Shown in pieces: positions 2,794 through 34,030 of a DNA stretch of 64,000 bases. The position numbers and the translations under genes were made by a program. The stretch is from Agrococcus sp. Marseille-P2731. Lineage in GTDB: Bacteria; Actinomycetota; Actinomycetes; Actinomycetales; Microbacteriaceae. Location of the stretch: the NCBI RefSeq assembly GCF_900117395.1, contig NZ_FPEG01000001.1, forward strand, positions 310,001 to 374,000, given 5' to 3'. The notes below the pieces were generated by a model. That model saw only the letters and a list, made by a program, of their open reading frames with translations. It was not told the origin of the DNA and did no database searches. Each line of letters begins with the position of its first letter. Positions within the stretch are counted from its first letter, which is position 1.

Positions 2794-2830
2794 CCGCCGC
2801 CGGCCGCGCGGCCGGTGGCTGGGTCGCGGG

Positions 2831-2858
2831 TTAGGCTGAAGGACGTCGACGAGGGGGG
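2831..2858 (+). promoter_or_regulatory. Promoter -10 and ribosome binding site of the FadR-type regulator
   Basis: TTAGGCTG at 2831-2838 contains the TAGGCT -10 form that recurs before many genes in this window. A G-rich GAGGGGGG at 2851-2858 lies just ahead of the GTG start at 2862 and supports that start. No copy of the CTGGTANTACCAG palindrome is visible here, so autoregulation through that site is not supported. Confidence 0.55.
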
Positions 2859-2861
2859 CCT

Positions 2862-3593: not shown

Positions 3594-3605
3594 GCCCCCG
3601 CCCCC
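3576..3605. terminator. Bidirectional terminator hairpin between convergent genes
   Basis: GGGGGCGGGG (3576-3585) pairs exactly with CCCCGCCCCC (3596-3605) over a 10-base loop that contains the regulator's stop codon. It sits between the ends of the regulator and the E1 beta gene. There is no T-run, as is common for actinobacterial hairpins. Confidence 0.6.
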
Positions 3606-3621
3606 TCCAGCATCCCGAGCG

Positions 3622-16967: not shown

Positions 16968-17005
16968 CGGGTCGTGACCGACGCATCCGCGCCGGTCACG
17001 ACCCG
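16968..17005 (+). terminator. Strong intercistronic stem-loop after the receptor gene
   Basis: CGGGTCGTGACCG (16968-16980) pairs perfectly with CGGTCACGACCCG (16993-17005) over a 12-base loop. Such hairpins between receptor and permease genes of sugar ABC operons stabilise the receptor message and reduce read-through, giving more receptor than permease. Confidence 0.65.
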
Positions 17006-17031
17006 CCGTGCCTCCACACCGAGGAGACCCC

Positions 17032-17979
17032 ATGATCGAGGCTGAGGCCGCAGCGCAGGCAGCGCTGCCCACGCCGCGGCGAAGCCCCAGGCGGCGCGCG
17101 ACCGTGCTGCCGCTCGTGCTGCTGGCACCGGCGACCGCCATCGTCGCCGTCGTCATCGGCTGGCCGCTCGTGCAGCTGGCGCTGCTCTCCTTCCAGGAGT
17201 TCGGCCGCGCGCAGGTCTTCGGCCAGCCGGCCGAGTGGGTGTGGTTCGACAACTACGTCACCGTGCTCGGCGACGGCGAGTTCTGGACGGTGCTCGGGCG
17301 CACGGTCGCCTTCGCGCTGGTGTGCGTGGTGTCGGCGATGCTCATCGGCATCGCGCTCGCGCTGCTCATGCAGCGGCTGCCGAAGCCGTTCCGGGTGCTC
17401 ATGAGCGTCGGGCTGCTGCTGGCCTGGGCGATGCCGGCCCTCACCGCCACGATCGTCTGGGGGTGGATGTTCGACACCGAGTACGGCGTCGTGAACTCGC
17501 TGCTGCGCGACGTGCTGGGGCTGAGCGAGTTCGACCGCCGCTCGTGGCTCATCGACCCGATGGGCTTCTTCACCGTCGCGACGATCATCATCGTCTGGGG
17601 CGCCGTGCCGTTCGTGACCTTCATGGTCTTCGCCGGGCTCACGCAGGTGCCGGAGGAGCAGCTCGAGGCGGCCGCGCTCGACGGCGCGGGCCCCGCGCGG
17701 CGCTTCTCGTCGATCGTGCTGCCGCAGCTCGCGCCGATCCTCGTGATCGCCACGATCCTGCAGCTGATCTGGGACCTGCGGGTCTTCACCCAGATCTTCG
17801 CCCTGCAGGACATCGGCGGCATCCGCTCCGAGACCTCGACGCTCGGCGTGTACATCTACCAGACCGCGATCGCCGGCGGCGAGTTCGGCATCGGCGGCGC
17901 GCTCGCCATCATCACGATGCTCGTGCTGCTCGTGCTCGCCTTCCCGCTGATGCGGAACATGCTCAGGAGCGAGTCGTGA
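17032..17979 (+). CDS. Sugar ABC transporter permease (MalF type)
   Basis: 315 residues with six or so hydrophobic helices. The ATPase-contacting EAA loop is EEQLEAAALDGAGPARRFSS followed by IVLPQLAPI, the hallmark of these permeases. The ATG at 17032 has GAGGAGA upstream. Its stop overlaps the GTG of the partner permease. No ATPase gene is present in this operon, so an MsiK-like shared ATPase is presumably used. Confidence 0.92.
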   Translation: MIEAEAAAQAALPTPRRSPRRRATVLPLVLLAPATAIVAVVIGWPLVQLALLSFQEFGRAQVFGQPAEWVWFDNYVTVLGDGEFWTVLGRTVAFALVCVVSAMLIGIALALLMQRLPKPFRVLMSVGLLLAWAMPALTATIVWGWMFDTEYGVVNSLLRDVLGLSEFDRRSWLIDPMGFFTVATIIIVWGAVPFVTFMVFAGLTQVPEEQLEAAALDGAGPARRFSSIVLPQLAPILVIATILQLIWDLRVFTQIFALQDIGGIRSETSTLGVYIYQTAIAGGEFGIGGALAIITMLVLLVLAFPLMRNMLRSES

Positions 17980-18827
17980 GGCACAAGCAGCGGCGCCGCG
18001 CCGCGACCGTCCTGTGGTGCGCCGTCGCGGTCTTCGTCTTCGTCTGCTCCACGTTCCCCGTCTACTGGATGGTCAAGACCTCCTTCCAGCCCAACAACGA
18101 GGTGCGCTCGCGCGAGCTGCAGCTGTGGCCGGAGTCGTTCACCCTGCGCAACTACGAGACCGTGCTCTTCGATCCGGGCCGCACGCCGTTCCTGCCGGCG
18201 CTCGGGATGTCGCTGGTGGTCACCCTCGCGACCGTGCTGGTCGCCGCGGTGCTCTCGTTCTTCGCCGCGGTCGCCATCTCGCGCTTCCGCTTCCGCAGCC
18301 GCAAGGGCTTCATCGTCGCGATCATCGCGATCCAGATGCTGCCGCTCGAGGCGATGATGGTCTCGCTCTACCGCGTGCTCGACGCCTGGCAGCTGCTCAA
18401 CACGGCCATCGCGCTCATCCTGATCTACTCGGCGACGGTCGTGCCCTTCACGATCTGGACCCTGCGCGGCTTCGTCGACGGGCTGCCGATCGAGCTCGAG
18501 GAGGCTGCGCAGATCGACGGCTGCTCGCGCGTGGGCGCGTTCTTCCGCATCACCTTCCCGCTGCTCGCGCCCGGCCTCGTGGCCACCGGCGTCTTCGCCT
18601 TCATCCAGGCCTGGAACGAGTTCCTGATGGCATTGATCGTCAACACCCGACCCGATCTCATGACGCTGCCCGTGTGGCTGCGCACCTTCCTCACGCTCAA
18701 CGGCACGACCAACTGGGCGGCGATCATGGCCGGCTCCACGCTCATGGCGATCCCGGTCGTGGTGTTCTTCCTCCTCATCCAGGGCCGCATGGCCAGCGGC
18801 CTCGCAGGCGGGGCGGTGAAGGGATGA
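17976..18827 (+). CDS. Sugar ABC transporter permease (MalG type)
   Basis: 283 residues starting at GTG 17976, overlapping the previous stop (GTGA). VYWMVKTSF at the first helix end, the loop IELEEAAQIDGCSRVGAFFR and TFPLLAPGL identify the inner-membrane permease partner. It forms the channel together with the gene at 17032 and receives sugar from the lipoprotein at 15685. The stop overlaps the next start, tying transport to intracellular hydrolysis. Confidence 0.92.
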   Translation: MRHKQRRRAATVLWCAVAVFVFVCSTFPVYWMVKTSFQPNNEVRSRELQLWPESFTLRNYETVLFDPGRTPFLPALGMSLVVTLATVLVAAVLSFFAAVAISRFRFRSRKGFIVAIIAIQMLPLEAMMVSLYRVLDAWQLLNTAIALILIYSATVVPFTIWTLRGFVDGLPIELEEAAQIDGCSRVGAFFRITFPLLAPGLVATGVFAFIQAWNEFLMALIVNTRPDLMTLPVWLRTFLTLNGTTNWAAIMAGSTLMAIPVVVFFLLIQGRMASGLAGGAVKG

Positions 18828-20224
18828 GCCTGCTCGCAGACGCACGCGCCACGCTCATGCCGGGCTTCGTCGGCACCGAGCTGCCGGCCTGGATGGCCGG
18901 CCTGCTCGCCGAGGGCCTCGTCTCCTGCTGCCTCTACGGAGAGAACGTGGTCGACCCGCAGCAGCTGCGCCGGCTGTCGGATGCGGTGCGCGCCGTGCGC
19001 GCGGACGCGATCGTCGCGCTCGACGAGGAGGGCGGCGACGTGACCCGCGTGCACTACGCGACCGGCTCGCCCTTCCCGGGCGCCGCGGTGCTCGGCCGCG
19101 CGGACGATCTCGACTGGACCCGCTCGATCGCTGCACGAGTGGGGGAGCACGTGCGCGCCGTCGGCGCCACGATGACCTTCGGGCCCGTCGCCGACGTCAA
19201 CGTCGACCCCGACAACCCGGTCATCGGGGTGCGCAGCTTCGGCGCGGATGCGCAGCTCGCGGCGCGCCACGCGGCCGCGTGGGTCGAGGGCGCGCAGGGC
19301 GTGGGCGTCGCCGCGACCGCGAAGCACTTCCCCGGCCACGGCGACACCGCGGTCGACTCGCACGTCGGGCTGCCCGTCGTGCACGCCGACGTCGCACTGC
19401 TGCGCGCCCGCGAGCTCGAGCCGTTCCGCGCGGTGATCGCGGCGGGAGCCGCAGCCATCATGACCTCGCACATCCTGGTCCCGGCGATCGATGCGGTGCC
19501 CGCGACGCACTCGCGGGCGATCCTCACCGAGCTGCTGCGCGGCGAGCTCGGCTACGAGGGGCTCATCGTCTCCGACGCGCTCGACATGGCGGGGGCCAGT
19601 GCCGAGATCGGCATCCCGGAGGCCGCGGTGCGCGCACTCACGGCGGGCTGCGACCTGCTGTGCCTCGGCACGGCCACGGGCGCCGAGGGCATCGCCGCGA
19701 TCGAGCGCGCCGTGCTCGCCGCGGTGGAGGAGGGCAGGCTCGACGCCGAGCGGGTGCGCGACGCCGCCCGTCGCACGCGCGCCCGGGCGGCCGCTGCGCC
19801 GCCGCCCCTGCCGCTGAGCGCGCTCGGCGACGCGACCGCCGACGACCTGGCGCGCATCCGCTCGACCTTCTCCGTGACCGAGGAGGCGCTGCGGTGGATC
19901 GCGCAGCATCGCGGCGAGGCAGCGGTGGTGCGGCTCGAGCGCGCCGCGAACATCGCCGCGGGCGCGGTGCCGTGGGATCCCTTCGAAGGATCGGTCGTCG
20001 TCGAGCCGGGCGCCGTGCCGCAGCTGCAAGCAGGGCCCGTCATCGTGCTCGGCAAGGATCTCGAGCGCGGGCCGGAGTCAGCCGCGAGCATCGCGGCGCT
20101 GCGCGAGCGGCACGACCTGCTCGTCGTCGACGCGGGGTGGTCTGCCGGCCGCCTCGCCGACGTCGCGACCTTCGGCGCCTCGCGCGCCTGCGGGCTCGCG
20201 CTGCGCGAGATGCTCGCGCGATGA
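18824..20224 (+). CDS. nagZ: Glycoside hydrolase family 3 beta-N-acetylhexosaminidase (NagZ-like)
   Basis: 466 residues. KHFPGHGDTAVDSH is the NagZ signature with the catalytic His loop of family 3 hexosaminidases, and LIVSDALDMAGA carries the Asp nucleophile. No signal peptide is present, so it acts in the cytoplasm, cleaving GlcNAc from imported chito-oligosaccharides or muropeptides. Some family 3 members are phosphorylases, and this sequence does not exclude that. The C-terminal 110 residues beyond the barrel resemble the second domain of two-domain NagZ/NagA-type enzymes of actinobacteria. ATGA overlaps couple it to the permease before and the kinase after. Confidence 0.88.
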   Translation: MSLLADARATLMPGFVGTELPAWMAGLLAEGLVSCCLYGENVVDPQQLRRLSDAVRAVRADAIVALDEEGGDVTRVHYATGSPFPGAAVLGRADDLDWTRSIAARVGEHVRAVGATMTFGPVADVNVDPDNPVIGVRSFGADAQLAARHAAAWVEGAQGVGVAATAKHFPGHGDTAVDSHVGLPVVHADVALLRARELEPFRAVIAAGAAAIMTSHILVPAIDAVPATHSRAILTELLRGELGYEGLIVSDALDMAGASAEIGIPEAAVRALTAGCDLLCLGTATGAEGIAAIERAVLAAVEEGRLDAERVRDAARRTRARAAAAPPPLPLSALGDATADDLARIRSTFSVTEEALRWIAQHRGEAAVVRLERAANIAAGAVPWDPFEGSVVVEPGAVPQLQAGPVIVLGKDLERGPESAASIAALRERHDLLVVDAGWSAGRLADVATFGASRACGLALREMLAR

Positions 20225-21123
20225 GCGCGCTCGGCATCGACATCGGCGGCACCACGACGGTCGCCGTCGTGCTCGAGCATGGGCGCGTGCTCGGCTCGCA
20301 CCAGGTGGCGACGCGTCGCGGCGACGGCGTCGTGGCCTCTGCGGTCGCGGCGGCGCGCGAGGCGCTCGCGGTCGCCGGCGTCGAGCGCTCGGCGCTCGAA
20401 GGCGCAGGTCTCGGGGTGCCCGGCATCGTCGGCGACGACCGCACGCTCGTGCGCGGCGCCGTCAACCTCGGCATCGAGGCACTCGACATCGGCAGCGCGG
20501 TGAGCGAGGGCCTCGGCGTCGCGGTCACGGTCGACAACGACGTGCGCGCCGCGGTGCTCGGCGCCCGGCACCTGATGGCAGAGCCCGCTGCGGTGATCGC
20601 CTACGTCGGGCTCGGCACCGGCATCGCCGCAGGGCTGGCCTTCGGCGACCGCGTGCTGCGCGGCGCGAGCGGCATGGCGGGCGAGATCGGTCACATCCCC
20701 GTGCCGGGTGCGAGCAGCCGATGCCGCTGCGGGCAGCTCGGCTGCCTCGAGACGCTCGCCTCCGGCTGGTCGCTCGCACAGCGCTGGGCGGGCGATATCC
20801 CCGCCGCCGCCATGCTGGCCGCCGCCGAGCGCGGCCAGGAGCGGGGCGAGCGCGAGTGGCGGGCGTTCATCGACGGGATCGCGCACGCGGTGCGCAGCCT
20901 CGTGCTCACGACCGGCGTCGACGCCGTGCTGATCGGCGGCGGGATCAGCGGGCTCGGCGCCCCGCTGCTCGACGGGGTGCAGGGGCGGATCGCCGCCTGG
21001 GCCGAGGACTCGCCGCTGCTGGGCGCGCTCGACGTGCCCGCGCGCATCCGCCTGCTGCCACCCGGTGCGCAGCCGGGTGCTGTGGGCGCCGCCATCATGG
21101 GGAGCGCCGCATGGAGGTCGTGA
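20221..21123 (+). CDS. ROK-family sugar kinase (N-acetylglucosamine/glucose kinase type)
   Basis: 300 residues. The ATP loop IDIGGTTTVAVVLEHG is at the N-terminus, with GVPGIVGDD and DNDVRAAVLG for sugar contacts (catalytic Asp in VDNDV). GEIGHIPVPG and CRCGQLGCLE form the zinc site. There is no helix-turn-helix, so it is an enzyme and not a regulator. Between the hexosaminidase and deaminase genes, its expected reaction is ATP-dependent phosphorylation of released GlcNAc to GlcNAc-6-phosphate. Start and stop overlap both neighbours. Confidence 0.88.
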   Translation: MSALGIDIGGTTTVAVVLEHGRVLGSHQVATRRGDGVVASAVAAAREALAVAGVERSALEGAGLGVPGIVGDDRTLVRGAVNLGIEALDIGSAVSEGLGVAVTVDNDVRAAVLGARHLMAEPAAVIAYVGLGTGIAAGLAFGDRVLRGASGMAGEIGHIPVPGASSRCRCGQLGCLETLASGWSLAQRWAGDIPAAAMLAAAERGQERGEREWRAFIDGIAHAVRSLVLTTGVDAVLIGGGISGLGAPLLDGVQGRIAAWAEDSPLLGALDVPARIRLLPPGAQPGAVGAAIMGSAAWRS

Positions 21124-21887
21124 TCGTCGCGGACGCCGCAGCTGCCGGCGATCTCGCCGCCGCGCGGGTCGCCGAGGTCGTGGAGGCCATGCCCGATGCG
21201 GTGCTGGGCGTCGCGACCGGCTCGAGCCACCTCGCGACCTACCGCGCGCTCGCCGCCAGGAGGGAGGCGGGCCTCGATCTCTCGCGCGTGTCGGCGTTCG
21301 CGCTCGACGAGTACGTCGGGCTGGCCAGGCGGCACCCGGAGTCGTACCGCGAGGTGATCGCGAGGGAGGTGACGGCGCCGCTCGGCCTCGATCCCGCGCG
21401 AGTGCACGTGCCCAAGGGCGACGCCGCCGACCTCGCGGCGGAGTGCGCGCGCTACGAGCGGCGGATCGCGATCAGCGGCATCGACCTGCAGCTGCTCGGC
21501 ATCGGGGCGAACGGGCACATCGGGTTCAACGAGCCGACCTCGTCACTCAGCTCACGAACGCGGGTGAAGTCGCTGTCGGTGCGCACGCGGGCGGACAACG
21601 CGCGCTTCTTCGCGAGCGCCGACGACGTGCCGACGCACTGCATCACGCAGGGGCTCGGCACCATCCTGGATGCCGACCGCGTGCTGCTGGTCGCGACGGG
21701 GGAGCGGAAGGCGGAGGCGGTGGCGCAGATGGTGGAGGGGTCGCTGTCGGCGATGTGGCCGGGATCGGTGCTGCAGCTGCATCGGCGGGCGACCGTGATC
21801 GTCGACGAGGCGGCGGCCGGCGGGCTGCGGATGCAGGACTACTACCGCGAGGCGGCTGCTGCGAGCGAGGCGCTGCGAGCGCGCTGA
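21111..21887 (+). CDS. nagB: Glucosamine-6-phosphate deaminase
   Basis: 258 residues. GVATGSSHLATYRAL is the phosphate loop, FALDEYVGL contains the catalytic Asp-Glu-Tyr, and LGIGANGHIGFNEP carries the catalytic His of the NagB family. It converts glucosamine-6-phosphate to fructose-6-phosphate and ammonia. The ATG overlaps the kinase gene by 13 bases. The preceding step, deacetylation by NagA, is encoded separately at 32823-33947. It is the last gene of the amino-sugar operon. Confidence 0.93.
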   Translation: MEVVIVADAAAAGDLAAARVAEVVEAMPDAVLGVATGSSHLATYRALAARREAGLDLSRVSAFALDEYVGLARRHPESYREVIAREVTAPLGLDPARVHVPKGDAADLAAECARYERRIAISGIDLQLLGIGANGHIGFNEPTSSLSSRTRVKSLSVRTRADNARFFASADDVPTHCITQGLGTILDADRVLLVATGERKAEAVAQMVEGSLSAMWPGSVLQLHRRATVIVDEAAAGGLRMQDYYREAAAASEALRAR

Positions 21888-21948
21888 TGCGCGCGCGCTG
21901 CGGCCGGCGGAGGCCGTCGGCGAGGCCGTGGCGACACGCCGCGCGCGA

Positions 21949-21978
21949 TTGACAGCGATCGAACACACGTTCGATCAT
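21949..21978 (+). promoter_or_regulatory. SOS promoter with LexA box, imuA'
   Basis: TTGACA (21949-21954) is a perfect -35, and GATCAT (21973-21978) serves as -10 at 18-base spacing. Between and over them lies GATCGAACACACGTTCGATC (21957-21976), symmetric except for its central four bases and matching the actinobacterial LexA box CGAACRNNYGTTCG. The transcription start would fall at or next to the GTG at 21984. Confidence 0.88.
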
Positions 21979-21983
21979 GGAGT

Positions 21984-22673
21984 GTGAGCACACGGGTTCC
22001 AGCACGACTCGAGCGCCGCACGGGAGACGACCGCACGGCGACGGTCGAAGCGCTGCGCGCGCGGCTCCGCGGCATGCAGCAGGCCACCACGCAGCAGGCG
22101 CCGGTGCCCGACGAGTCGATGCTGGAGGGCCTGGACGAGGTGGTGCGGCGCCTGCGTGCGGGTGCCGTGCACAGCATCGAGTCGCGAGGGCTCGCGCTCG
22201 CGTGCCTGGGGGCGGTGATGCCGGCAGGTGCCTGGGGCGCGATCGTCGGACTCCCCGATCTCGGCATCGAGGCGGCCCGCGACCTCGGGGTGCCCATCGA
22301 CCGCGTGGCGCTCGTGCCGCATCCGGGCCGCTCGTGGCTCGATGTGGTGGCGAGCCTGGCCGAGGCGATGCCGGTGGTGCTCGCCGCCTCGCCCGGCAGG
22401 GTGACGCCGACGGATGCTGCTCGGCTCGCCGCGCGGTTGCGGCAGGCCTCGTCGACGCTGCTCATCGCGGGGCCGTGGCATGGGGCAGCGACCGTGGTGC
22501 GCAGCGTGCGCGCCGAGTGGCAGGGGCTCGCCGACGGCGACGGGCGGATCGCTGCCGGCGGCCTCGTCGTCGAGGTGGCGACCGGCGGGGCTCCGAGCTT
22601 CGCGAGGATCCCCATCGACAGGACGGGTGGGCCGGGGATGCGGGCGGTGGAAGCGCGCAGATCGGCCGCGTGA
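21984..22673 (+). CDS. imuA': Mutasome accessory protein ImuA' (RecA-like)
   Basis: 229 residues. It has the SulA/ImuA-type RecA-like core: LACLGAVMPAGAWGAIVGLP, VALVPHPGRSWLDVVASL and VLAASPGRVTPTDAARLAAR. The Walker A lysine of true RecA is not evident. ImuA' works with ImuB and DnaE2 in SOS-induced translesion synthesis and mutagenesis. The GTG start follows the SOS promoter with essentially no leader. Uniquely here, imuB does not follow: two exported repeat proteins occupy the next 4 kb. Confidence 0.82.
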   Translation: MSTRVPARLERRTGDDRTATVEALRARLRGMQQATTQQAPVPDESMLEGLDEVVRRLRAGAVHSIESRGLALACLGAVMPAGAWGAIVGLPDLGIEAARDLGVPIDRVALVPHPGRSWLDVVASLAEAMPVVLAASPGRVTPTDAARLAARLRQASSTLLIAGPWHGAATVVRSVRAEWQGLADGDGRIAAGGLVVEVATGGAPSFARIPIDRTGGPGMRAVEARRSAA

Positions 22674-22682
22674 ATCTTTCAC
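22670..22682. repeat. Short palindrome at the imuA' stop
   Basis: GTGAA-TCT-TTCAC is a perfect 5-bp inverted repeat that includes the imuA' TGA stop. The following 120 bases up to the next gene are AT-richer than the surroundings and may hold its promoter, but no clear -35/-10 pair can be chosen. Confidence 0.35.
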
Positions 22683-22805
22683 ACTCCGCAGAACTGGGAG
22701 GCGAGCAGAATTGCTGTGAATGCTCTGAGATTCCTCGCTTCTCCCATGCCAGCGGCCTAGCGTGACCAGAGAACACCCGAGAAGGCATGACTTCGGAGGA
22801 CCGCA

Positions 22806-24107
22806 ATGGACGCGAGCGCACCGCGCAGGCAGCCCCGCCTGCTGCGCCTCGCGCTCGCGAGCGGCACCGCGACGATCGGAGCCGCGGCGCTGTTCCTCTT
22901 CGCAGGCGGGATGCCTGCGCATGCGGCCGGTGATGAGGCGGTCGGCGGATCCACCACAGGGCTCGTGCAGGACCTCGGCGACCTGGTCGGTGGTGTGACG
23001 GAGCCGGTCGGCGACCTGGCCGGAGAGGTCACGGAGCCCGTCGGCGAGCTGGTCGGCGGAGTGGCGGAGCCGGTCGGCGACCTCGTCGAAGAGGTCGCGG
23101 AGCCTGCGGGAGATCTCGTCGGCGACATGGCAGCGCCCGTCGGCGACGTGGTCGCAGCGGTGGCGGAGCCGGTCACCGAGGTCACGCAGCCGGCCGGCGA
23201 TCTGGTCTCTGCGGTGACGGCGCCTGTTGGCGACCTGGTCTCCGAGGTGACGGTGCCGGTGGGCGATGTCGTCTCCGAGGTGACGGCGCCGGTGGGCGAT
23301 CTGGTCTCCGAGGTGACGCAGCCGGTCGGCGATCTGGTGACCGAGGTGACGCAGCCGGTCGGCGATCTGGTGACCGAGGTGACGCAGCCGGTCGGCGATC
23401 TGGTGACCGAGGTGACGCAGCCCGTCGGCGATCTGGTCACTGAGGTGACCGAGCCGGTCGTCGACGCCGTCGAGGAGACGCTGGAGCCGGTGACCGAGCC
23501 CGTCGTCGACGTCGTCGAAGAGGCGCTGGACCCGGTGCTCGACCCGGTCGTGGACGTGGTCGAGGCAGTCACGCCGAACCCGAGCCCCGCAGCTCCGAAC
23601 CCTGTGGTGCCGGTCCCCTCGAGCCCGAGCCCCGCAGTCCCGACCCCCGCAGTCCCGAGCCCGTCGCCGCAGCCGATCCCCGCTACGCCGGCACCCGCAG
23701 CGCCGATCCTCCAGACCCCGGCTCCCGCCCCGACGACGCAGGCCGACGACGCGAGCGCCGTGGACGCATCCGACGCCCCCGACGCTGCCGACACCCTCGC
23801 GCTCCGCGTGATGGCGGCACTCACCTTCGCGCCGATGCCTGCCGCCGTCACGACGGTCGAGGCTCCGCAGCCTGGAGCGCTGCCCACGGTCGGCGAGCGC
23901 GCCGTGCCGATCGAGGCGCCCGCTGCTCCCGCGGTCGCGCCGGCTGCGCCGGCTGGCGCGAGCGGCGCTGCCGCCGGAGCCGCCGCCGCTGTGGCGGACA
24001 CCCATGACCACCTGCTGCCCGAGCTCTCGGGCGGGCAGGCTGGCGCGATCGCGAACGATCGCGCCCCCGCCTCGATCGTCGAGGAGCACACCGCAAGTCC
24101 TGATTGA
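22806..24107 (+). CDS. Exported protein with 11-residue amphipathic repeats and a Pro/Ala-rich tail
   Basis: 433 residues, family not recognised. Residues 1-41 form a signal peptide (RRQPRLLRLAL, hydrophobic core, cleavage after PAHA). Residues about 57-257 are some 18 consecutive 11-residue units of the form EVTQPVGDLVT, alternating valine/leucine with acidic residues. Four of them are near-identical 33-bp DNA repeats (23315-23446). The rest is rich in Pro, Ala, Ser and Val with a PNPSPAAPN stretch, and there is no LPXTG motif or C-terminal membrane anchor. GGAGGA precedes the ATG. The regular period suggests a beta or coiled extracellular fibre. The function is unknown. It lies between imuA' and imuB. 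Confidence 0.8.
   Translation: MDASAPRRQPRLLRLALASGTATIGAAALFLFAGGMPAHAAGDEAVGGSTTGLVQDLGDLVGGVTEPVGDLAGEVTEPVGELVGGVAEPVGDLVEEVAEPAGDLVGDMAAPVGDVVAAVAEPVTEVTQPAGDLVSAVTAPVGDLVSEVTVPVGDVVSEVTAPVGDLVSEVTQPVGDLVTEVTQPVGDLVTEVTQPVGDLVTEVTQPVGDLVTEVTEPVVDAVEETLEPVTEPVVDVVEEALDPVLDPVVDVVEAVTPNPSPAAPNPVVPVPSSPSPAVPTPAVPSPSPQPIPATPAPAAPILQTPAPAPTTQADDASAVDASDAPDAADTLALRVMAALTFAPMPAAVTTVEAPQPGALPTVGERAVPIEAPAAPAVAPAAPAGASGAAAGAAAAVADTHDHLLPELSGGQAGAIANDRAPASIVEEHTASPD
23315..23446 (+). repeat. Tandem 33-bp DNA repeats within the 22806 gene
   Basis: Four near-identical units starting GACGCAGCCGGTCGGCGAT encode DLVTEVTQPVG. Diverged copies extend on both sides across about 22975-23580. Confidence 0.85.
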
Positions 24108-24190
24108 GCGATCCCCTGCCGCGCTCGCGCGGCATGCACAGCCGTCCCGGAGCGGGATGGCGGATCACTCCAATCAGGAAAGGCAGAGCA

Positions 24191-26587
24191 ATGAACAAGC
24201 TCATGTGGCGAGCGCTGTGCACAGCAGCGGTCGCGGGCGGCCTGTGGGCCGCAGGCACTGGCATCGCCAGTGCGACAGAGACCGAGGGCGCAGACGGCCT
24301 CGGTGCAGGGAACCAGGCGGTGGTGGATGTCTCGCTGCCGGTGACGATCAGCGGCACATCCCTCGGTCTGCTCGGCGATGCCGAGTCGACGGATGCGCAC
24401 ACGACGTCGGACTCGTCGGCGGAAGCGCCGTCGGCCGGCGTCTCGACCTCCGGGATCGGCGGCGTGCTCTCGGGCACGACGGCGCTCGTGGACGTCGACC
24501 TGCCGGTGACGATCGCAGGCAATGCGGTCGGCGTGCTCGGCGACGCGACGAGCGAGGGCTCGACCGCGACGACGAGCTCAGGCGGCGGCGACGCCGCGGC
24601 GGCATCGACGTCCGGTGATGACAGCGTGCTGAGCGGCACCCAGCTGCTCGGCGACGTCTCGGTGCCGGTGAACATCTCGGGCAACGCGGTCGCGGTGCTG
24701 GGCGATGCGACGAGCACCGACTCGAGCAGCACCGCGTCGACCGGGGATGCAGGAGCGAGCGCTCCTGCTGCCACCTCGGGTGACGACGGTGTCGGCAGCG
24801 GCACGCAGGAGGTCTACGACGTCGCAGCGCCCGTGATCACGGGCGGCAATGCTGTCGGTGTGGGCGGTGACGCGCACAGCGAGGGCTCGTCGGCTGAGGC
24901 GATGACGGGCTCCGGTTCGTCGGATGCGCCGGTGACCTCGGGAGACGACAGCCTGCTGGGTGGTTCGCAGGTGGTGGCTGATGTCGTGGCGCCCATCGTC
25001 GCTGGCGGCAACGCTGTCGGCGTCGTCGGTGACGCGACGAGCACCGGTTCGGACGCTGGGGCGATGACGGGCTCCGGTTCGTCGGATGCTGCCGAGTCGA
25101 CCTCCGGTGACGGCAGCCTGCTGGGTGGCACGCAGGTGGTGGCTGATGTCGTGGCGCCCATCGTCGCTGGCGGCAACGCTGTCGGCGTCGTCGGTGACGC
25201 GACGAGCACCGGTTCGGACGCTGGGGCGATGACGGGCTCCGGTTCGTCGGATGCTCCGTCGACCTCCGGTGACGACAGCCTGCTGGGTGGCACGCAGGTG
25301 GTCGCTGATGTCGTGGCGCCCATCGTCGTTGGTGGCAACGCTGTCGGCGTCGTCGGTGACGCGACGAGCACCGGTTCGGACGCTGGGGCGATGACGGGCT
25401 CCGGTTCGTCGGATGCTGCCGAGTCGACCTCGGGTGATGACAGCCTGCTGGGTGGTTCGCAGGTGGTCGCTGATGTGGTTGCGCCGATCGTCGCTGGCGG
25501 CAACGCTGTCGGCGTCGTCGGTGACGCGACGAGCACCGGTTCGGACGCTGGCGCGATGACGGGCTCCGGTTCGTCGGATGCTCCGTCGACCTCCGGTGAT
25601 GACAGCCTGCTGGGTGGCACGCAGGTGGTCGCTGATGTCGTGGCGCCGATCGTCGCTGGCGGCAACGCTGTCGGCGTCGTCGGTGACGCGACGAGCACCG
25701 GTTCGGACGCTGGCGCGACGACGGGCTCCGGCTCGTCGGATGCTCCGTCGACCTCCGGTGACGACAGCCTGCTGGGCGGTCTGCAGACCGTCATCGAGGC
25801 CGCGGTTCCCGTGGCTGTCGGTGGCAACGCGATCGCCGTGCTGGGCGACGCGACGAGCGAGGGGTCCACGGTCGACTCCTCCGCGACCACTGGGTCGGGC
25901 AACGGCTCGACCTCCGGTGACGACGGGCTGCTCTCGGGCCTGCTCGGCAGCATCGGCGTCTCGGTGCCGGTGAACGTCTCCTGCAACGCGATCGGCCTCA
26001 TCGGCGATGCGTCGTCGAGCGACTGCAGCGCGGTGACGGGCCCGGGAACCCCAGGTGAGCCGGGTACCCCGGGTGAGCCGGGTACCCCGGGTGAGCCGGG
26101 TACCCCGGGTGAGCCTGGTACCCCGGGTGAGCCTGGTACGCCTGGTGAGCCTGGTACGCCGGGTGACCCGGGTACCCCGGGTACCCCGGGTACCCCGGGT
26201 ACCCCGGGTACCCCGGGTACCCCGGGTACCCCGGGTAAGCCTGGTACGCCGGGTGAGCCGGGTACCCCGGGTGAGCCTGGTACGCCGGGTGAGCCGGGTA
26301 CGCCGGGCACCCCGGGTGAGCCGGGAACCCCCGGCCAGCCGGGCACCCCTGGCGAGCCGAACATGCCCGGTGAGCCCAGCACTCCGGGCGACGACGGCAA
26401 GGCCGACCTCCCGGTGATCGACCGCCCGGCGGACGACGGGGCGAACCCGTCGGCCGCGGGCGGCTCGGCGGCGATGCTGCCGCAGACGGGCGCGGAGCAC
26501 TCCGCAGCCCTGCTGATGGCGCTCGGTCTGCTGGCGCTCGGTGCACTGCTGATGCTGGGCGCACGTCGCGTCCGCAGCATGCAGTGA
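24191..26587 (+). CDS. LPXTG-anchored surface protein with chaplin-like and collagen-like repeats
   Basis: 798 residues. A signal peptide (to about residue 30, IASATE) is followed by 11 repeats of 52-55 residues (24287-26037). Each has a hydrophobic [16 protein letters not shown]-type core resembling the chaplin GN-V-G motif of Streptomyces aerial-hypha proteins, joined by Ser/Thr/Asp-rich linkers. Next come about 40 Gly-X-Pro triplets (GTPGEP, also GDP, GKP, GQP), collagen-like. The end is a sortase signal: LPQTG at residues 763-767, a hydrophobic helix and RRVRSMQ. It should be covalently fixed to peptidoglycan with the repeats displayed outside. Only one repeat has cysteine pairs like those of classical chaplins. 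The role is inferred to be surface hydrophobicity or adhesion. Confidence 0.85.
24938..25753 (+). repeat. Five near-identical 162/165-bp tandem repeats
   Basis: Repeats 5 to 9 of the chaplin-like array begin at SGDDSLLGG or SGDGSLLGG and differ at only a few bases, with unit lengths alternating 55 and 54 codons through a DAAEST/DAPST switch. Flanking repeats 1-4 and 10-11 are diverged. Such identity points to recent unequal recombination. Confidence 0.9.
26039..26392 (+). repeat. 9/18-bp collagen-like coding repeats
   Basis: CCGGGTACC and CCGGGTGAG nonamers alternate, then run as an uninterrupted series of about seven CCGGGTACC units near 26169-26234. They encode Gly-Thr-Pro and Gly-Glu-Pro triplets and are prone to slippage. 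Confidence 0.9.
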
Positions 26588-26678
26588 TGTGCAGGGAGGT
26601 GCGGGGCGCGTACGACAGCGTCCCGCACCTCCGCATGCCCGCGTGCGGTGCAGGCTGATCGCGACACACCGCATCCGC

Positions 26679-26708
26679 TTGACTGCGTTCGAACGTGTGT
26701 TCGATCAT
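26679..26708 (+). promoter_or_regulatory. SOS promoter with LexA box, imuB
   Basis: TTGACT (26679-26684) and GATCAT (26703-26708) with an 18-base spacer flank TCGAACGTGTGTTCGA (26689-26704), an actinobacterial LexA box. The segment 26661-26710 aligns with 21931-21980 before imuA' in most positions, including GCGACAC upstream and TCGATCATGGA downstream. Confidence 0.88.
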
Positions 26709-26714
26709 GGATGC

Positions 26715-28268
26715 ATGGCAGAGCAGACGATGGAGCGGGGCGCGCAGTCGCGCGCCACCCCGCAGCGCGACAGCCGCATCGGCGTGCTGCGCGTGCCCGA
26801 CTGGGCGGTCGTCGTCGCGCGCCAGACCGGCGCGCTGCCCGCTGGCGGCGAGGCCGGCGTGCCGGGCGCGATCACCCACGCGCTGCGGGTCGTCGCCTGC
26901 GACGCAGGGGCTCGAGCCGATGGCGTGCGGGTCGGCATGCGGGTGCGCGACGCGCAGTCGGCCTCGCCCATGCTCGCGCTCGCGCCCGCCGACCCGGTGG
27001 GCGAGGCGCTCGCCTTCGAGCAGGTCGTGCGCGCGGTGCTCGCGGTCGTGCCCGCCGCGCAGCCCATCGGCGACGGGGCGTTGGCGTTCCGGATGCGGGG
27101 GGCCAGCAGGTTCTACGGCTCGGAGCCGCGCGCGATCGAGGCGGTGCGCTCGGCGCTCGCGGCGCTGGGGCTGACGGCGGCGTTCGGCGTCGCCGATGAT
27201 CGCTTCACCGCCGAGCTCGCCGCGGCCGCAGACACGATCGTGCCCGAGGGGCGCAGCCAGGAGTTCCTGAGCGCGCTGCCCGTCGGGGTGCTGGGCGACG
27301 ATGAGCTGCCGGGCATGCTGCACCGGCTCGGCGTGCACACGCTGGGCGACTTCGCGCAGCTGCCGGAGGCGAGCATCCGCGATCGCTTCGGCGCCGCGGG
27401 GCTCATCGCCCTCTCCCGTGCTCGCGGGCTCGACGACCGCCGCGTCGACGAGGCGGGGCTGGGGGAGGAGCGCGTGCTGCGGCTCGTGTTCGAGCCCGGC
27501 ATCGAGGGCGTGGCAGAGCTGGCGCTCGCGGTGCGCGAGCCGGTCGAGCGCTTCGTGCGGCAGCTGGCCGAGCAGCGGCTCGTGTGCAGCGAGATCCGCA
27601 TCCTGCTGCGCGCCGAGGAGGGGCGGGTGAGCGAGCGCCTCTGGCGGCAGCCTGGCTTCCTGCGCGCGAGCGACATCGTCGACCGGATGCGCTGGCAGCT
27701 CGCCGAGAGCGACCTCGGCTCGGCGCTCGTCGAGGTCGAGGCGCTGCCAGAGCGGCTCGACGCCGACACCGAGCACATGCCGGGGCTGTGGGGCGGCGGC
27801 GACATCGACGACCGCACGAAGCACGCGCTCGAGCGGCTGCAGAGCATGCTGGGGCGCGAGGCAGTGCTCACCGCGGCGACCGGCGGCGGCAGGCTGCTGG
27901 CCGAGCGCGGCGTGCTCACCCCGTGGGGCGACGCCGCACCGCCGCAGCCGGTCGGACCCTGGCCGGGCGCGCTGCCCGCACCGCGGCCCTCCGTCGTCTT
28001 CCGCCCGCCGCTGCCGGTGCTGCTCGTCGATGCCGCCGGTCTCGCCGTCGAGCCCAGCGCGCTCGACGTGCGCGAGGCATCCCCCGCCGTCTTCTCGCCG
28101 CCCGCCGCGCCGCGGCGGCGGGTGGTGACGTGGGCGGGGCCGTGGCCGATCAGGCGGCGCGAGCTCGGCGACGTCGTGCACCGGCTGCAGCTGCTCGACG
28201 GCGAGGGCGAGGCCTGGGTACTGCTGCACGCCGACGGCGCCTGGCTCGCCGAGGGCCGTTATGCGTGA
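26715..28268 (+). CDS. imuB: Mutasome hub protein ImuB (inactive Y-family polymerase)
   Basis: 517 residues. The N-terminal half follows the DinB/ImuB fold: [44 protein letters not shown] and the helix-hairpin-helix [20 protein letters not shown]. The active-site acidic pair of real Y-family polymerases is missing at the RGASRFYG position, as in ImuB, which acts as scaffold between the beta clamp, ImuA' and DnaE2. The ATG at 26715 follows the SOS promoter by 6 bases. dnaE2 lies 168 bases downstream. Confidence 0.9.
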
Positions 28269-28291
28269 GGGGCGCAGCACGCCGGCGACCG

Positions 28292-28352
28292 TCAACCGGC
28301 ATGGAGGGGGTTCGACCGGATAGCCCGGTCGAACCACCGGGAGACCGGTTGA
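28292..28352. repeat. Nested inverted repeats in the imuB-dnaE2 spacer
   Basis: An inner perfect 11-bp stem GGTTCGACCGG (28309-28319)/CCGGTCGAACC (28325-28335) with a 5-base loop is enclosed by an outer 8-bp stem TCAACCGG (28292-28299)/CCGGTTGA (28345-28352). It can form a two-tier hairpin or cruciform between two SOS genes. Confidence 0.75.
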
Positions 28353-28375
28353 AGAACGGCGGATGAGGCGGACGA

Positions 28376-28416
28376 GGCAGGCGCAGGCAGGCGCAGGCAG
28401 GCGCAGGCAGGCGCAG
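28376..28416. repeat. Four tandem 10-bp repeats before dnaE2
   Basis: GCGCAGGCAG-type decamers repeat about four times immediately upstream of the AGGGGAAGGGGGAG ribosome site of dnaE2. Slippage here would alter the spacing in the leader. Confidence 0.8.
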
Positions 28417-28436
28417 CAGCAGGGGAAGGGGGAGCG

Positions 28437-31400
28437 ATGGCCGGCTGGAACAACCCGGCGATGCCGTGGCGCGAGCTCGAGGGCATCCTCAGCGACCGCG
28501 ACGTCGGGGCGGGCAAGACCCCGCGCGCCGAGGAGCTCGACGAGGCGCGGCGCCCGCGCATCCGCGTGCCGAGCGCCTCGACGCCCTACGCCGAGCTGCA
28601 CGCCCACTCGCACTACTCCTTCCTCGACGGCGCCTCGAGCCCGGCAGAGCTCGTGAACGAGGCGCGCAGGCTCGGCCTCGAGGCGCTCGCGCTCGTCGAC
28701 CACGACGGGCTCTACGGCGCGGTGCGCTTCGCCGAGGCCGCCGCAGAGGCGCAGCTGCCCACCGTCTTCGGCACCGAGTTCTCGCTCGGCCTCGAGACCC
28801 CGCAGCACGGCATCCCCGACCCCGACGGCAGCCACCTCGTCGCACTCGCGACCGGCCCGACGGGCTACTCGGCGCTCGCCTCGGCGCTCACCGACGGCTA
28901 CCTCTCGACCGACAGCCGCGGCCGGCCGGGCGAGAAGGGGCGGCCCATCTTCGAGCTCGAGCGGCTCGCCGAGACCGCGCGCGGCGAGTGGATGATCCTG
29001 TCGGGCTGCCGCAAGGGCACCGTGCGCCAGGCGCTCGACCGCTTCGGTGCCGACGCAGACGGGGCGGATGCCGCCGGTCACGAGCTCGACCGGCTCGCGT
29101 CGCTCTTCGGTCGGGATCGCGTCGTGGTCGAGCTGAGCGACATCGGCGACCCGCGCGACCACGAGCGCAACCGGGTGCTCGCCGACCTCGCCGAGCGCCG
29201 CGGGCTGCCGATGATCGCGACCACCAACGCCCACATCGCGAGCCCCGCCCGGCAGCAGCTCGGCGACGCGGTCGCGGCCGTGCGCGCCCGCCGCTCGATC
29301 GACGAGCTCGACGCCTGGCTGCCCGCCGGCGGCGTGCCGTCGCTGCGCTCGGGCGCCGTCATGGCCCGTCGCTTCCGCGCGTTCCCCGGCGCCGTCGACA
29401 CGGCCGCGGCGCTCGGGCGCGACCTCGCCTTCGACCTGCGCGCCGCATCCCCCGCCCTGCCGAAGACCGAGGTGCCACCGGGGCACACCCCCATGAGCTG
29501 GCTGCGGGCGCTCGTCGACGAGCGGCTGCCGCGCGTCTACGACACCGGCGCAGACGGCGCACCCAGCCCCTCGGTGCGGGGGCGGCTCGACCACGAGCTG
29601 CGCCTCATCGACGAGAAGGGCTTCGCCGGCTACTTCCTCATCGTGTTCGAGATCGCCGAGTTCGCCCACAGCCGCGGCATCCTCTGCCAGGGCCGCGGCT
29701 CGGCCGTCGCGAGCGCCGTCTGCTTCATCCTCGGCATCACCGCCGTCGACCCCATCCGCTACGACCTGCCCTTCGAGCGCTTCATCTCGATGATGCGCAC
29801 CGAGGAGCCCGACATCGACATCGACTTCGACGCCGACCGGCGCGAAGAGGTGATCCAGCACGTCTACGAGCGCTACGGCCGCCGCAACGCCGCGCAGGTC
29901 GCCAACGTCATCACCTACCGCCCGAAGTCGGCGGTGCGCGACGCGGCGAAGGCGCTCGGCTATGCCGTCGGGCAGCAGAACGCCTGGTCGAAGTCGGTCG
30001 AGTCCTACTCGCGCATCGACGAGGACAGCGGCATCCCCGAGCCGGTCGCGCTGCTCGCCGGCGAGTTCCTGCACGCGCCCCGCCACCTCGGCATCCACTC
30101 GGGTGGCATGGTGCTCACCGAGCAGCCCGTCGGCACGGTCTGCCCCATCGAGCCCGCGCGCATGGAGCATCGCACGGTGCTGCAGTGGGACAAGGACGAC
30201 TGCGAGTGGATGGGCCTGGTGAAGTTCGACCTGCTGGGCCTCGGCATGCTCGGCGCCATGTCGCACACCCTCGAGCTCGCGCGCGAGCACCTCGGCGAGG
30301 AGTGGTCGATCGGGTCGATCCCCGCCGAGGAGGCGGGGGTCTACGACATGCTGTGCGAGGCGGATGCGGTGGGCGTGTTCCAGGTCGAGTCGCGCGCGCA
30401 GATGGCCACCCTCCCGCGGCTGAAGCCGCGCAGCTTCTACGACCTGGTGATCGAGATCGCGCTCATCCGCCCCGGCCCCATCCAGGGCGGTGCGGTGCAC
30501 CCCTACATCCGCCGCCGCACCGGTGCCGAGCCGGTGACCTATCCGCACGCGCTGCTCGTGCCGGTCCTCGAGCGCACCCTCGGGGTGCCGCTGTTCCAGG
30601 AGCAGCTGATGCAGATGTCGGTCGCGGTCGGCGGCTTCGACGCCGGCGAGGCCGACCAGCTGCGCCGCGCGATCGGCTCGAAGCGATCGCGGGAGCGCAT
30701 CGAGGCGCTCAAGGCGAAGCTCTTCGCGGGCATGGCCGCGAACGGTGTGGACGACGAGACGGCCGAGTCGATCTACCGCAAGATCGAGGCCTTCGCGGGC
30801 TTCGGCTTCGCCGAGTCGCACTCGCTCGCGTTCGGCAAGCTCGTCTACTCCTCGTCGTGGCTCAAGCTGCACTACCCGGCGGCGTTCCTCGCTGGGCTGC
30901 TGCGCAGCCAGCCCATGGGGTTCTGGTCCCCGCAGACGCTCGTGAAGGATGCCTCGAGGCACGGCGTCGAGACGCTGCGCCCCGACGTGGCGCGGTCGGG
31001 CATCGTCGCTGGCCTCGAGCGGCACGGCGAGCGCAGGCCAGGCGTCGACGCGTGCCTCGAGCGGGAGCAGCCGCCCGTGCCGAAGGTCGCGACAGAGACG
31101 CTCGCGATGCGCGACCGGCATCGGCGCGACGCGGGCTTCGCCGTGCGGATGGGGCTCACGAGCGTCGCGGGCGTGGGCGAGGCGGCCGCCGAGCGCATCG
31201 TCGCCGCGCGCGAGGCGGCGCCGCTGCGCGACATCCACGACCTCGCGCGCCGCGCCGACCTCGACCGCGGCGAGCTCGAGGCGCTCGCGACCGCTGGCGC
31301 GCTCGAGGGGCTGGGCGTCAGCCGGCGGGAGGGGCTGTGGCTCGCGGGCCCCGCGTCGGCGGAGCGCGAGGATCAGCTCGAGGGCTCGCAGCTGGTCATC

Positions 31401-31835
31401 CAGCCGCCGCTGCTGCCGATGCTGTCGGCCTCCGAGCAGGTGGCGCTCGACATCTGGTCGACGGGTGTCGCGACGGATGATCATCCGGTGCGGCACGCGC
31501 GCGCGATGCTCGACGGCCGCGGCGTGCTGCCGATCGCGGCGCTCGCTGAGGCAGAGCCCGGCCGGCGCGTGCAGGCGGCGGGCGTCGTCACGCACCGGCA
31601 GCGGCCGAGCACGGCGCAGGGCGTCACCTTCATGAACCTCGAGGACGAGACGGGCATGCTGAACGTCATCATCTCGAAGGGGCTGTGGGCGCACTCGCGG
31701 CAGGTCGCGCGGCACTCGCCAGCGCTCATCGTGCAAGGCATGCTGCAGCGGACGCCCGAGGGGGTCATCGCGCTGCTCGCCGATCGGCTCGAGCGCTTCG
31801 AGGTGCCGAGCTCGGGGTCGCGCGACTTCCGCTAG
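28437..31835 (+). CDS. dnaE2: Error-prone DNA polymerase III alpha subunit DnaE2
   Basis: 1132 residues, normal for DnaE2. The PHP domain begins YAELHAHSHYSFLDGASSP. The polymerase core shows GRGSAVASAVCFILGITAVD and the catalytic aspartates of EPDIDIDFDADRREEV. GFAESHSLAFGKLVYSSSWL and HPAAFLAGLL-type sequence follow, and the C-terminal OB domain contains GVTFMNLEDETGMLNVI. It is the translesion polymerase of the ImuA'/ImuB mutasome, induced by DNA damage. It probably shares the imuB SOS promoter, since no separate LexA box is visible in the 168-base spacer. Confidence 0.95.
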   Translation: MAGWNNPAMPWRELEGILSDRDVGAGKTPRAEELDEARRPRIRVPSASTPYAELHAHSHYSFLDGASSPAELVNEARRLGLEALALVDHDGLYGAVRFAEAAAEAQLPTVFGTEFSLGLETPQHGIPDPDGSHLVALATGPTGYSALASALTDGYLSTDSRGRPGEKGRPIFELERLAETARGEWMILSGCRKGTVRQALDRFGADADGADAAGHELDRLASLFGRDRVVVELSDIGDPRDHERNRVLADLAERRGLPMIATTNAHIASPARQQLGDAVAAVRARRSIDELDAWLPAGGVPSLRSGAVMARRFRAFPGAVDTAAALGRDLAFDLRAASPALPKTEVPPGHTPMSWLRALVDERLPRVYDTGADGAPSPSVRGRLDHELRLIDEKGFAGYFLIVFEIAEFAHSRGILCQGRGSAVASAVCFILGITAVDPIRYDLPFERFISMMRTEEPDIDIDFDADRREEVIQHVYERYGRRNAAQVANVITYRPKSAVRDAAKALGYAVGQQNAWSKSVESYSRIDEDSGIPEPVALLAGEFLHAPRHLGIHSGGMVLTEQPVGTVCPIEPARMEHRTVLQWDKDDCEWMGLVKFDLLGLGMLGAMSHTLELAREHLGEEWSIGSIPAEEAGVYDMLCEADAVGVFQVESRAQMATLPRLKPRSFYDLVIEIALIRPGPIQGGAVHPYIRRRTGAEPVTYPHALLVPVLERTLGVPLFQEQLMQMSVAVGGFDAGEADQLRRAIGSKRSRERIEALKAKLFAGMAANGVDDETAESIYRKIEAFAGFGFAESHSLAFGKLVYSSSWLKLHYPAAFLAGLLRSQPMGFWSPQTLVKDASRHGVETLRPDVARSGIVAGLERHGERRPGVDACLEREQPPVPKVATETLAMRDRHRRDAGFAVRMGLTSVAGVGEAAAERIVAAREAAPLRDIHDLARRADLDRGELEALATAGALEGLGVSRREGLWLAGPASAEREDQLEGSQLVIQPPLLPMLSASEQVALDIWSTGVATDDHPVRHARAMLDGRGVLPIAALAEAEPGRRVQAAGVVTHRQRPSTAQGVTFMNLEDETGMLNVIISKGLWAHSRQVARHSPALIVQGMLQRTPEGVIALLADRLERFEVPSSGSRDFR

Positions 31836-31854
31836 GCGGGCTCAGCTGGCGACG

Positions 31855-31994
31855 GGTCGCTGAGCCGGTGCGTGCCGCAGGCGCTCACCGTGTCGAAGCG
31901 TGGTCGCTGAGCCGGTGCGTGCCGCAGGCGCTCACCGTGTCGAAGCGCGGTCGCTGAGCCGGTGCGTGCCGCAGGCGCTCACCGTGTCGAAGCG
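31855..31994. repeat. Three tandem copies of a dispersed palindromic repeat
   Basis: Copies of 46 bp at 31855-31900, 31902-31947 and 31949-31994 each begin GGTCGCTGAGCCGGTGCG and end CACCGTGTCGAAGCG, nearly identical to one another. The core GGTGCGTGCCGCAGGCGCTCACC folds as a hairpin. Related single copies occur at 32792, 36862, 36913, 47742 and 47835. Confidence 0.9.
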
Positions 31995-32065
31995 TGCGCC
32001 CGTCACACCACCGATACCCTGCGGTGCTGCGTGGTCGGCATCCCCCGCACATCGGAGGCGAACCC

Positions 32066-32785
32066 ATGTTCTCGAGCACTGTCACCCAGTACTGGCTGCC
32101 CCTGTCTGCGGATGCCACACCCGTCTCGAACGGCGAGCTCGGCGTGGTCGTCGACGAGACCCTGCCGCAGAATCGGCGCCTGGCGGTGCTCGAGCCCACC
32201 GACGGTGCCGGCATCGTCTCCGCCACTCCTTCGATCGCGCGCGCGCTCGGCCTCGTGCACGGCGGCACCGTCGGCTCGGCGCAGCTCGCGGCGGCGCTGC
32301 AGCGGGCGGACCTCTCGCTGCACGGCGCCGATGCGCTCTTCTACCTGCCCGCCGAGGGGCATGAGCTGCTCGTGCAGGCGACCGCGCCGTCACACGTGCG
32401 GCAGCTCACCGTCGCCGACGCGACGGCCTTCGCGGCGTTCGAGCGAGAGGCCCCCGAGAGCGACCTCGACGACGCCTTCGTCGAGCTCGATCACTGGCTC
32501 GTGTTCGGCGCCTTCGTGGAGGACGAGCTCGCATGCGCCGCCAGCATGTACCCGTGGCCCGAGACGGCGCTCGCCGACCTGGGGGTGCTGACGCTGCCGC
32601 GATTCCGGGGCCGCGGACTCGCCCGGCAGACGGTGCGGGCGATGAGCGCCCATGCGCTCTCGCTCGGCTACGAGCCGCAGTACCGCTGCCAGCTCGACAA
32701 CGGAGCCTCCATCGCGCTCGCGCGCTCGGCGGGGCTGGCGTGCTTCGGCACGTGGGACGTCGTCGCCGAGCCTGACGAGGACTAG
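32066..32785 (+). CDS. GNAT-family N-acetyltransferase with N-terminal extension
   Basis: 239 residues. The C-terminal half is GNAT: LGVLTLPRFRGRGLARQTVR holds the acetyl-CoA RxxGxG loop, followed by CQLDNGASIALARSAGLACF. Residues 1-110 form an extra domain with a strand pattern but no motif I recognise, as in two-domain GNAT proteins. CGGAGG precedes the ATG at 32066, which makes this start better than in-frame codons lying inside the upstream repeats. Substrate unknown. Confidence 0.82.
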   Translation: MFSSTVTQYWLPLSADATPVSNGELGVVVDETLPQNRRLAVLEPTDGAGIVSATPSIARALGLVHGGTVGSAQLAAALQRADLSLHGADALFYLPAEGHELLVQATAPSHVRQLTVADATAFAAFEREAPESDLDDAFVELDHWLVFGAFVEDELACAASMYPWPETALADLGVLTLPRFRGRGLARQTVRAMSAHALSLGYEPQYRCQLDNGASIALARSAGLACFGTWDVVAEPDED

Positions 32786-32791
32786 ACCTGC

Positions 32792-32838
32792 GGCTCGCTG
32801 AGCCGGTGCGCTCCGCAGGCGCTCATCGTGTCGAAGCG
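32792..32838. repeat. Single copy of the dispersed palindromic repeat
   Basis: GGCTCGCTGAGCCGGTGCG to GTGTCGAAGCG, differing by a few bases from the 31855 copies. On the minus strand it contains the last five codons and the stop of nagA. Confidence 0.85.
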
Positions 32839-33947: not shown

Positions 33948-34030
33948 GCTCGTCAGCCTACGCGGAGGACGCAGAGGGCCCGCCTCGAGCAGCACTCGAG
34001 CACGGGCCCCTGCGGCCGATCAGGATCCGA

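Follow-up and report, generated by a model that had tools for sequence, protein, structure and literature searches.

For the imuA/imuA'-imuB-dnaE2 (imuC) cassette, almost all layouts have been reported to exist, including those in which each gene stands apart with its own SOS box (PMC3901139, citing Erill 2006). In the mycobacterial split dnaE2 lies apart from imuA'-imuB, and these mycobacterial genes have been placed under both LexA and PafBC (PMC10421592); for the latter, which serves RecA-independent damage promoters, the consensus tTGTCRgtg-N8-TAnnnT has been given (PMC5656591). The locus described here resembles the known cassette in its gene content, its LexA boxes and the presence of a separate SOS box for each separated part. 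In contrast to the mycobacterial split, however, it is imuA' that is cut off, imuB and dnaE2 remain together, and the promoter before imuB resembles a duplicate of the one before imuA'.

The window, that is the whole stretch of DNA analysed, is 64 kb long (G000:C3:19991-83990, minus strand) and belongs to an Agrococcus-group genome of the family Microbacteriaceae. The first-pass annotation had located a mutasome at 21931-28268 in which two genes for exported proteins part imuA' from imuB, and both the position and the gene content were found to be correct. The genes are all encoded on the plus strand in the order imuA', orf2, orf3, imuB and dnaE2, and the features of the locus are given below.

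21931-21981, plus strand: SOS promoter copy 1, with CGACACGCCG element, TTGAC at 21949-21953, LexA box at 21959-21974 and -10-like GATCAT at 21973-21978 (sequence comparison, promoter scan)
21984-22673, plus strand: imuA', NCBIfam NF058630 at 128 bits against a cut-off of 65, start codon 9 nt after the LexA box, probably a leaderless mRNA
22674-22805, plus strand: intergenic region between imuA' and orf2, likely a separate promoter of the surface pair (read by eye)
22806-24107, plus strand: orf2, exported repeat protein with EPVGDLV-type repeats (open reading frame, signal-like N-terminus by eye)
24105-24190, plus strand: predicted intercistronic RNA with two hairpins, at about 24118-24133 and 24141-24161 (RNAalifold, 16 sequences)
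24191-26587, plus strand: orf3, sortase-anchored repeat protein with ChpA-C chaplin-type repeats, a collagen-like stretch and an LPQTG anchor (Pfam/NCBIfam matches)
26661-26711, plus strand: SOS promoter copy 2, with CGACACACCG element, TTGAC at 26679-26683, LexA box at 26689-26704 and -10-like GATCAT at 26703-26708 (sequence comparison, promoter scan)
26715-28268, plus strand: imuB, Y-family-like, Pfam IMS at 30.8 bits against a cut-off of 23.2, start 10 nt after the box
28437-31835, plus strand: dnaE2 (imuC), downstream of imuB, NCBIfam NF004225 error-prone DNA polymerase at 1364 bits against a cut-off of 939

The locus thus encodes an ImuA' family protein, a Y-family-like ImuB and an error-prone DnaE2. 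ImuB scored 22-45 bits against the eight listed NCBIfam Pol IV models, whose cut-offs are 256-399. In place of adjacent genes in one operon, about 4 kb and two genes stand between imuA' and imuB. An Rfam scan of 17000-34000 gave no match. An inverted repeat was seen by eye at 28306-28336, between imuB and dnaE2, and a 93-bp near-identical overlapping direct repeat occupies 31855-31994, before a GNAT-like gene.

The near-identity of the segments upstream of imuA' and imuB, as first noticed, was borne out. The stretches 21931-21981 and 26661-26711 are identical at 40 of 51 positions when aligned ungapped, and the next-best place in the 64-kb window for the 51 bases of copy 1 matches at 29 positions on the same strand and at 27 on the opposite one. 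If TTGAC and the LexA box are excluded, the imuB copy still matches at 23 of 30 positions, a value reached nowhere else among the 63,950 window positions. Both copies contain a perfect TCGAAC-N4-GTTCGA; as a refinement of the earlier description, each box is the exact reverse complement of the other, so that the two strings are not identical. In each copy the perfect palindromic box overlaps the predicted promoter, as would be expected of SOS control by LexA. The two copies were the only sigma-70-like sites reported by the scan in 21850-28500, and the same layout recurs in the imu promoters of the relatives. Where the imuA' box is exact, 19 of 20 genes have their first in-frame start 9 or 10 nt past it (7 nt in G018), as do 12 of 13 imuB genes of the window's Agrococcus clade, the ingroup (a TTG at 3 nt in G001); this spacing is partly by construction as the script picked the first in-frame start past the box. 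This short spacing, together with a TTGAC about 35 nt before the start, suggests that the mRNAs are leaderless.

Three distinct perfect LexA sites were counted in the genome of the window (G000). Two further perfect boxes lie inside a perfect inverted copy of the region and were hence left uncounted. On contig C3 the first 197 kb, from base 1, perfectly repeats the following 197 kb in inverted orientation (1-196995 against 196996-393990; sampled stretches identical), which is probably an assembly artefact and may be the cause of the 7.69% contamination value of this genome. A LexA scan of the whole genome allowing two mismatches was unusable, with 426 matches against 155 in the control.

The gene order was then compared across the genus, where imuA' was matched in 20 of 24 genomes. 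Neither imuA' nor imuB gave a match in G003, G009, G012 and G015, three of which are incomplete (65-86%). The fourth, G012, is 100% complete, and some lineage of the Agrococcus group thus seems to be without these mutasome genes. In the sister clade (the A. jejuensis group; G008, G021 and G023), imuA' and imuB are adjacent; a box precedes imuA' whereas imuB lacks one, and in G008 and G021 dnaE2 carries a box of its own. A surface pair homologous to orf2 and orf3 lies upstream of imuA' in this clade, across an opposite-strand gene that we take to be malQ-like. Among the 17 ingroup genomes, the order imuA'-orf2-orf3-imuB was found on one contig in 11 (G000, G002, G005, G006, G007, G010, G011, G013, G014, G017 and G018), with a divergent pair in G006 and G018. 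The fetched contigs end inside the pair in G004, G019 and G022 and inside imuA' in G020. Only the C-terminal part of orf3 is left in G016, and G001 has no surface pair at the imu locus, with both promoters present; a search of the whole G001 genome for orf2 gave no match, but the pairs of G006 and G023 escaped this search. A box precedes imuB in 15 of the 17, the imuB start of the other two (G004 and G020) lying outside the fetched stretch. Inspection by eye of the sequence before imuB in G016 and G001 showed no remnant of imuA'.

The split is therefore not peculiar to the genome of the window, since it belongs to a clade with 11 Agrococcus genomes carrying the order on one contig. Nor is an arrival of the surface genes from elsewhere supported, given that the sister clade already has a homologous pair ahead of imuA'. 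The same spacing with unrelated promoters, or an ancestral order in which imuA' and imuB were never adjacent, would each have told against the proposed duplication, and neither was seen in the genus. In a more distant genome, Microbacterium sp. STN6 (L156), an orf2/orf3-like pair occupies 2076-4589, about 5 kb upstream of imuA' and on the opposite strand, and the neighbourhood of pair and mutasome may thus predate Agrococcus.

Across Microbacteriaceae, imuA' was found in 108 of 150 genomes, and 100 loci were read after three Agrococcus genomes and five unfetched loci (G064, G117, G144, G149 and G168) had been set aside. Ahead of imuA', 94 of the 100 have a LexA box with no more than one mismatch. 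Loci were called split where more than 400 bp separated the imuA' match from imuB, which gave 15 loci at first; one of them, G086, appeared as a split without a box and was reassigned as contiguous, its imuA' frame spanning most of the gap. This left 14 split and 86 contiguous loci which, together with the sister clade, agrees with the earlier assertion that imuA' and imuB are normally adjacent. By parsimony, the comparison of gene orders supports contiguous imuA'-imuB as the ancestral state.

A box before imuB was present in all 14 split loci, against 3 of the 86 contiguous ones (G097, G152 and G173), and lay 324-4950 bp past the stop of imuA' in the splits. When the search was confined to at most 160 bp before imuB and G086 was counted as split, an exact box was found in 12 of 15 split and 2 of 85 contiguous loci; allowing one mismatch gave 14 and 3, and allowing two gave 14 and 7. 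A quick tree was built from 116 genomes (16 Agrococcus and 100 others of the family; SH-aLRT only, with long-branch warnings touching Agrococcus). On this tree, the box before imuB required at least five changes and the split at least six, G086 again being counted as split. In a test of independent pairs, split and box differed in the same way in 1.7, in opposite ways in 0.0 and not at all in 3.3 of five pairs on average, too few for significance. The open frames in the gaps, as judged from ORF calls alone, differ by lineage and are in some cases on the opposite strand. In five split loci of a 12-genome clade (L290, L281, L271, L288 and L266), look-alike small frames of about 100-130 aa with the pattern ...W.FV.LP...G.T.W.TSIFP... 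follow imuA'. In some splits (G029, G134 and G163) the two promoters look unlike beyond the box and -35, so that not every split shows signs of a copied imuA' promoter.

Many of the imu promoters in the family share a longer design. The composite TGTCGGNGGCNNTTGACN4-LexA box, with at most two mismatches, gave 44 matches in 40 of 150 whole family genomes and none in the control; 38 of these lie just upstream of imuA' and the other six coincide with imuB boxes. As all 44 are thus at imuA' or imuB, the composite is no general SOS design, and the pattern points to a damage promoter which, among the 150 genomes, is found at the imu genes only. It is reminiscent of the PafBC promoters in that 28 of 94 imuA' and 5 of 17 imuB promoters have a TGTC element 21 nt upstream of the LexA box. 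Eight nt past this element, nAnnnT is present in 27 of the 28 imuA' and all five imuB promoters, compared with 31 of 66 and 5 of 12, respectively, at the same place in promoters that lack the element. Agrococcus differs in this respect, as the three genomes searched (G000, G002 and G018) gave no match to the composite at two mismatches or fewer. A further motif, GACRYGCCG, occurs within 75 nt upstream of imuA' in 25 of 94 Microbacteriaceae loci, against 0.3 expected from shuffled sequence.

The origin of the imuB promoter was assessed by alignment scores averaged per base (1 for a match, 0 for a mismatch, with a gap penalty) over 32 nt upstream of the box, which include the -35, and 20 nt downstream. 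A third SOS promoter, before a radical SAM gene of the Rv2578c type, served as control in ten genomes, the gene family itself being tested in G000 only. Ingroup imuB promoters scored 0.55 upstream and 0.68 downstream against the imuA' promoters of the sister clade, and 0.53 and 0.52 against those of the ingroup; ingroup and sister imuA' promoters scored 0.56 and 0.62 against each other. In contrast, the scores of ingroup imuB promoters against the control promoter were 0.36 and 0.28, with 0.29-0.33 for shuffled sequence, corresponding to 11.7 of 32 positions upstream (shuffled 10.1) and 5.7 of 20 downstream (shuffled 6.0). The closest match given by any of 13 imuB genes is that of G006, where the 20 nt that follow the box, TCATGGATGCATGACGATCG, recur unchanged at imuA' of G008 and G023. 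Other comparisons tell less clearly for a copy. Within single genomes, the upstream likeness of the two promoters reached p<0.05 in five of seven genomes tested, G018 and G014 being the exceptions. From the start codon on, six ingroup imuB genes were compared with three sister imuA' genes, and 8 of the 18 comparisons gave an uncorrected p<0.05; the window's own imuB reached that level with no sister imuA'. As the ingroup imuA' and imuB promoters are equally like sister imuA', these scores do not distinguish which copy is the original.

Contiguity elsewhere in the family, the kinship of the imuB promoter with that of imuA' and the prior presence of the surface pair as a neighbour are together best fitted by duplication of the imuA' promoter plus a local rearrangement, which produced a translesion-mutagenesis cassette with its first gene separated, and we consider this account likely. 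The duplication originally proposed thus stands insofar as the imuB promoter shares features of the imuA' promoter that are absent from the third SOS promoter; an arrival of the surface genes from elsewhere finds no support, as the pair was already a neighbour, and the split is clade-wide. An ancestor would have had one LexA-controlled promoter before imuA'-imuB and, a short way upstream, the surface pair. The ingroup ancestor would then have duplicated a segment with the imuA' promoter and lost parts, possibly by tandem duplication and reciprocal deletion, giving the order promoter-imuA'-surface pair-promoter-imuB-dnaE2. The imuB promoter would then descend from the imuA' promoter, and is perhaps the original, with its first codons. 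Cleavage of LexA after DNA damage should open both promoters together, yielding two mRNAs, probably leaderless, one for ImuA' and one for ImuB-DnaE2, with the surface pair transcribed from its own promoter.

The two promoters could also look alike with no duplication at all, if all strong LexA promoters of these bacteria had one architecture. The control promoter does have a similar TTG-box-start layout, and GACRYGCCG is also found before imuB in distant genera, in 4 of the 17 remaining family loci whose imuB has a box (G097, G173, G108 and G032), so that functional convergence could account for some of the likeness; the unlike promoters of the G029, G134 and G163 splits can be read in the same way. 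The control promoter is, however, barely closer to the imuB promoters than shuffled sequence, and the confinement of the composite to imuA' and imuB argues against a common architecture, albeit from a design that Agrococcus lacks. We regard a shared architecture as an unlikely explanation.

Under the preferred reading of a duplicated imuA' promoter, the order of promoter gain and split was considered next. In a DNA tree of rpoB and gyrB, G001 pairs with G013 within the ingroup (91/94), as it is also nested in the quick family tree, and its surface pair was thus probably lost. A five-gene tree with G001 as the first branch was not rejected (AU p 0.15), in which case G001 would be an intermediate and not a loss; nor did a protein tree decide where it branches (AU p 0.44). 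Four genomes have adjacent genes and two boxes (G001, G097, G152 and G173), which suggests that the promoter was gained before the split. Operons are mostly seen either before or after their break-up. Here intact, two-promoter-adjacent and split states coexist in one family, so that the relative timing of promoter gain and operon splitting can be put to the test, and the pattern suggests that ImuA' and ImuB stay under common damage control once they are no longer co-transcribed. Tentatively, one may envisage a repeatable course of break-up in Microbacteriaceae in which imuB first gains a copy of the imu-only promoter and the junction is thereby freed for unrelated genes, the older form of the promoter ending at imuB in some lineages (Agrococcus and G111/G174) and imuA' keeping a diverged one. 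A limited literature search found no paper on imuB and LexA in Microbacteriaceae or on chaplins in Agrococcus, and on that basis what appears new is the likely promoter copy, the recurrent association of split loci with a promoter at imuB, and the composite promoter confined to the imu genes.

Both proteins of the surface pair have signal-like N-termini when read by eye. The orf2 product matched no Pfam family above cut-off. That of orf3 resembles chaplins and LPXTG collagen-like surface proteins in its matches above Pfam cut-offs to ChpA-C (23.0 bits against 21), Gram_pos_anchor (21.9 against 20) and collagen, and it also matched TIGR01167 (23.2 against 15.9). Streptomyces chaplins are short, and the many-repeat, collagen-bearing architecture of orf3 is unlike them. 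Upstream of orf2, a candidate promoter with TAGCGT at 22758-22763 and a Shine-Dalgarno-like GGAGG was noted, and by eye most ingroup relatives have a common -35/-10-like pair and GGAGG there; site scans found no LexA box at 22674-22805. The pair thus likely has its own, LexA-free promoter, as far as can be judged from its sequence.

This bears on the view that the pair is kept in the cassette through functional coupling, being read through from the SOS promoter so that DNA damage remodels the cell surface. The pair is on the same strand as the imu genes, the scan reported no terminator between imuA' and orf2, and the order is held on one contig in those 11 genus genomes. Against this, the pair is likely to be served by the separate promoter read by eye, it stands upstream of imuA' in the sister clade, and the other splits of the family hold differing frames, some on the opposite strand by ORF calls alone; we thus hold such coupling to be doubtful. 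A mobile or site-specific insertion of the pair, with the 50-bp promoter copied into direct repeats on either side, seems least probable of all, for although direct repeats do flank the unit of imuA' plus pair and G001 has both promoters without the pair, copy 1 stands before imuA' and not at the left edge of the pair, so that the repeats do not border the pair alone, and the sister clade already has the homologous pair close by, across the malQ-like gene.

Between orf2 and orf3, RNAalifold predicted 16 base pairs from the 16 sequences, of which seven were changed on both sides in at least one sequence, with a small covariation term (-0.88 kcal/mol). This predicted two-hairpin RNA is present in the sister clade too.
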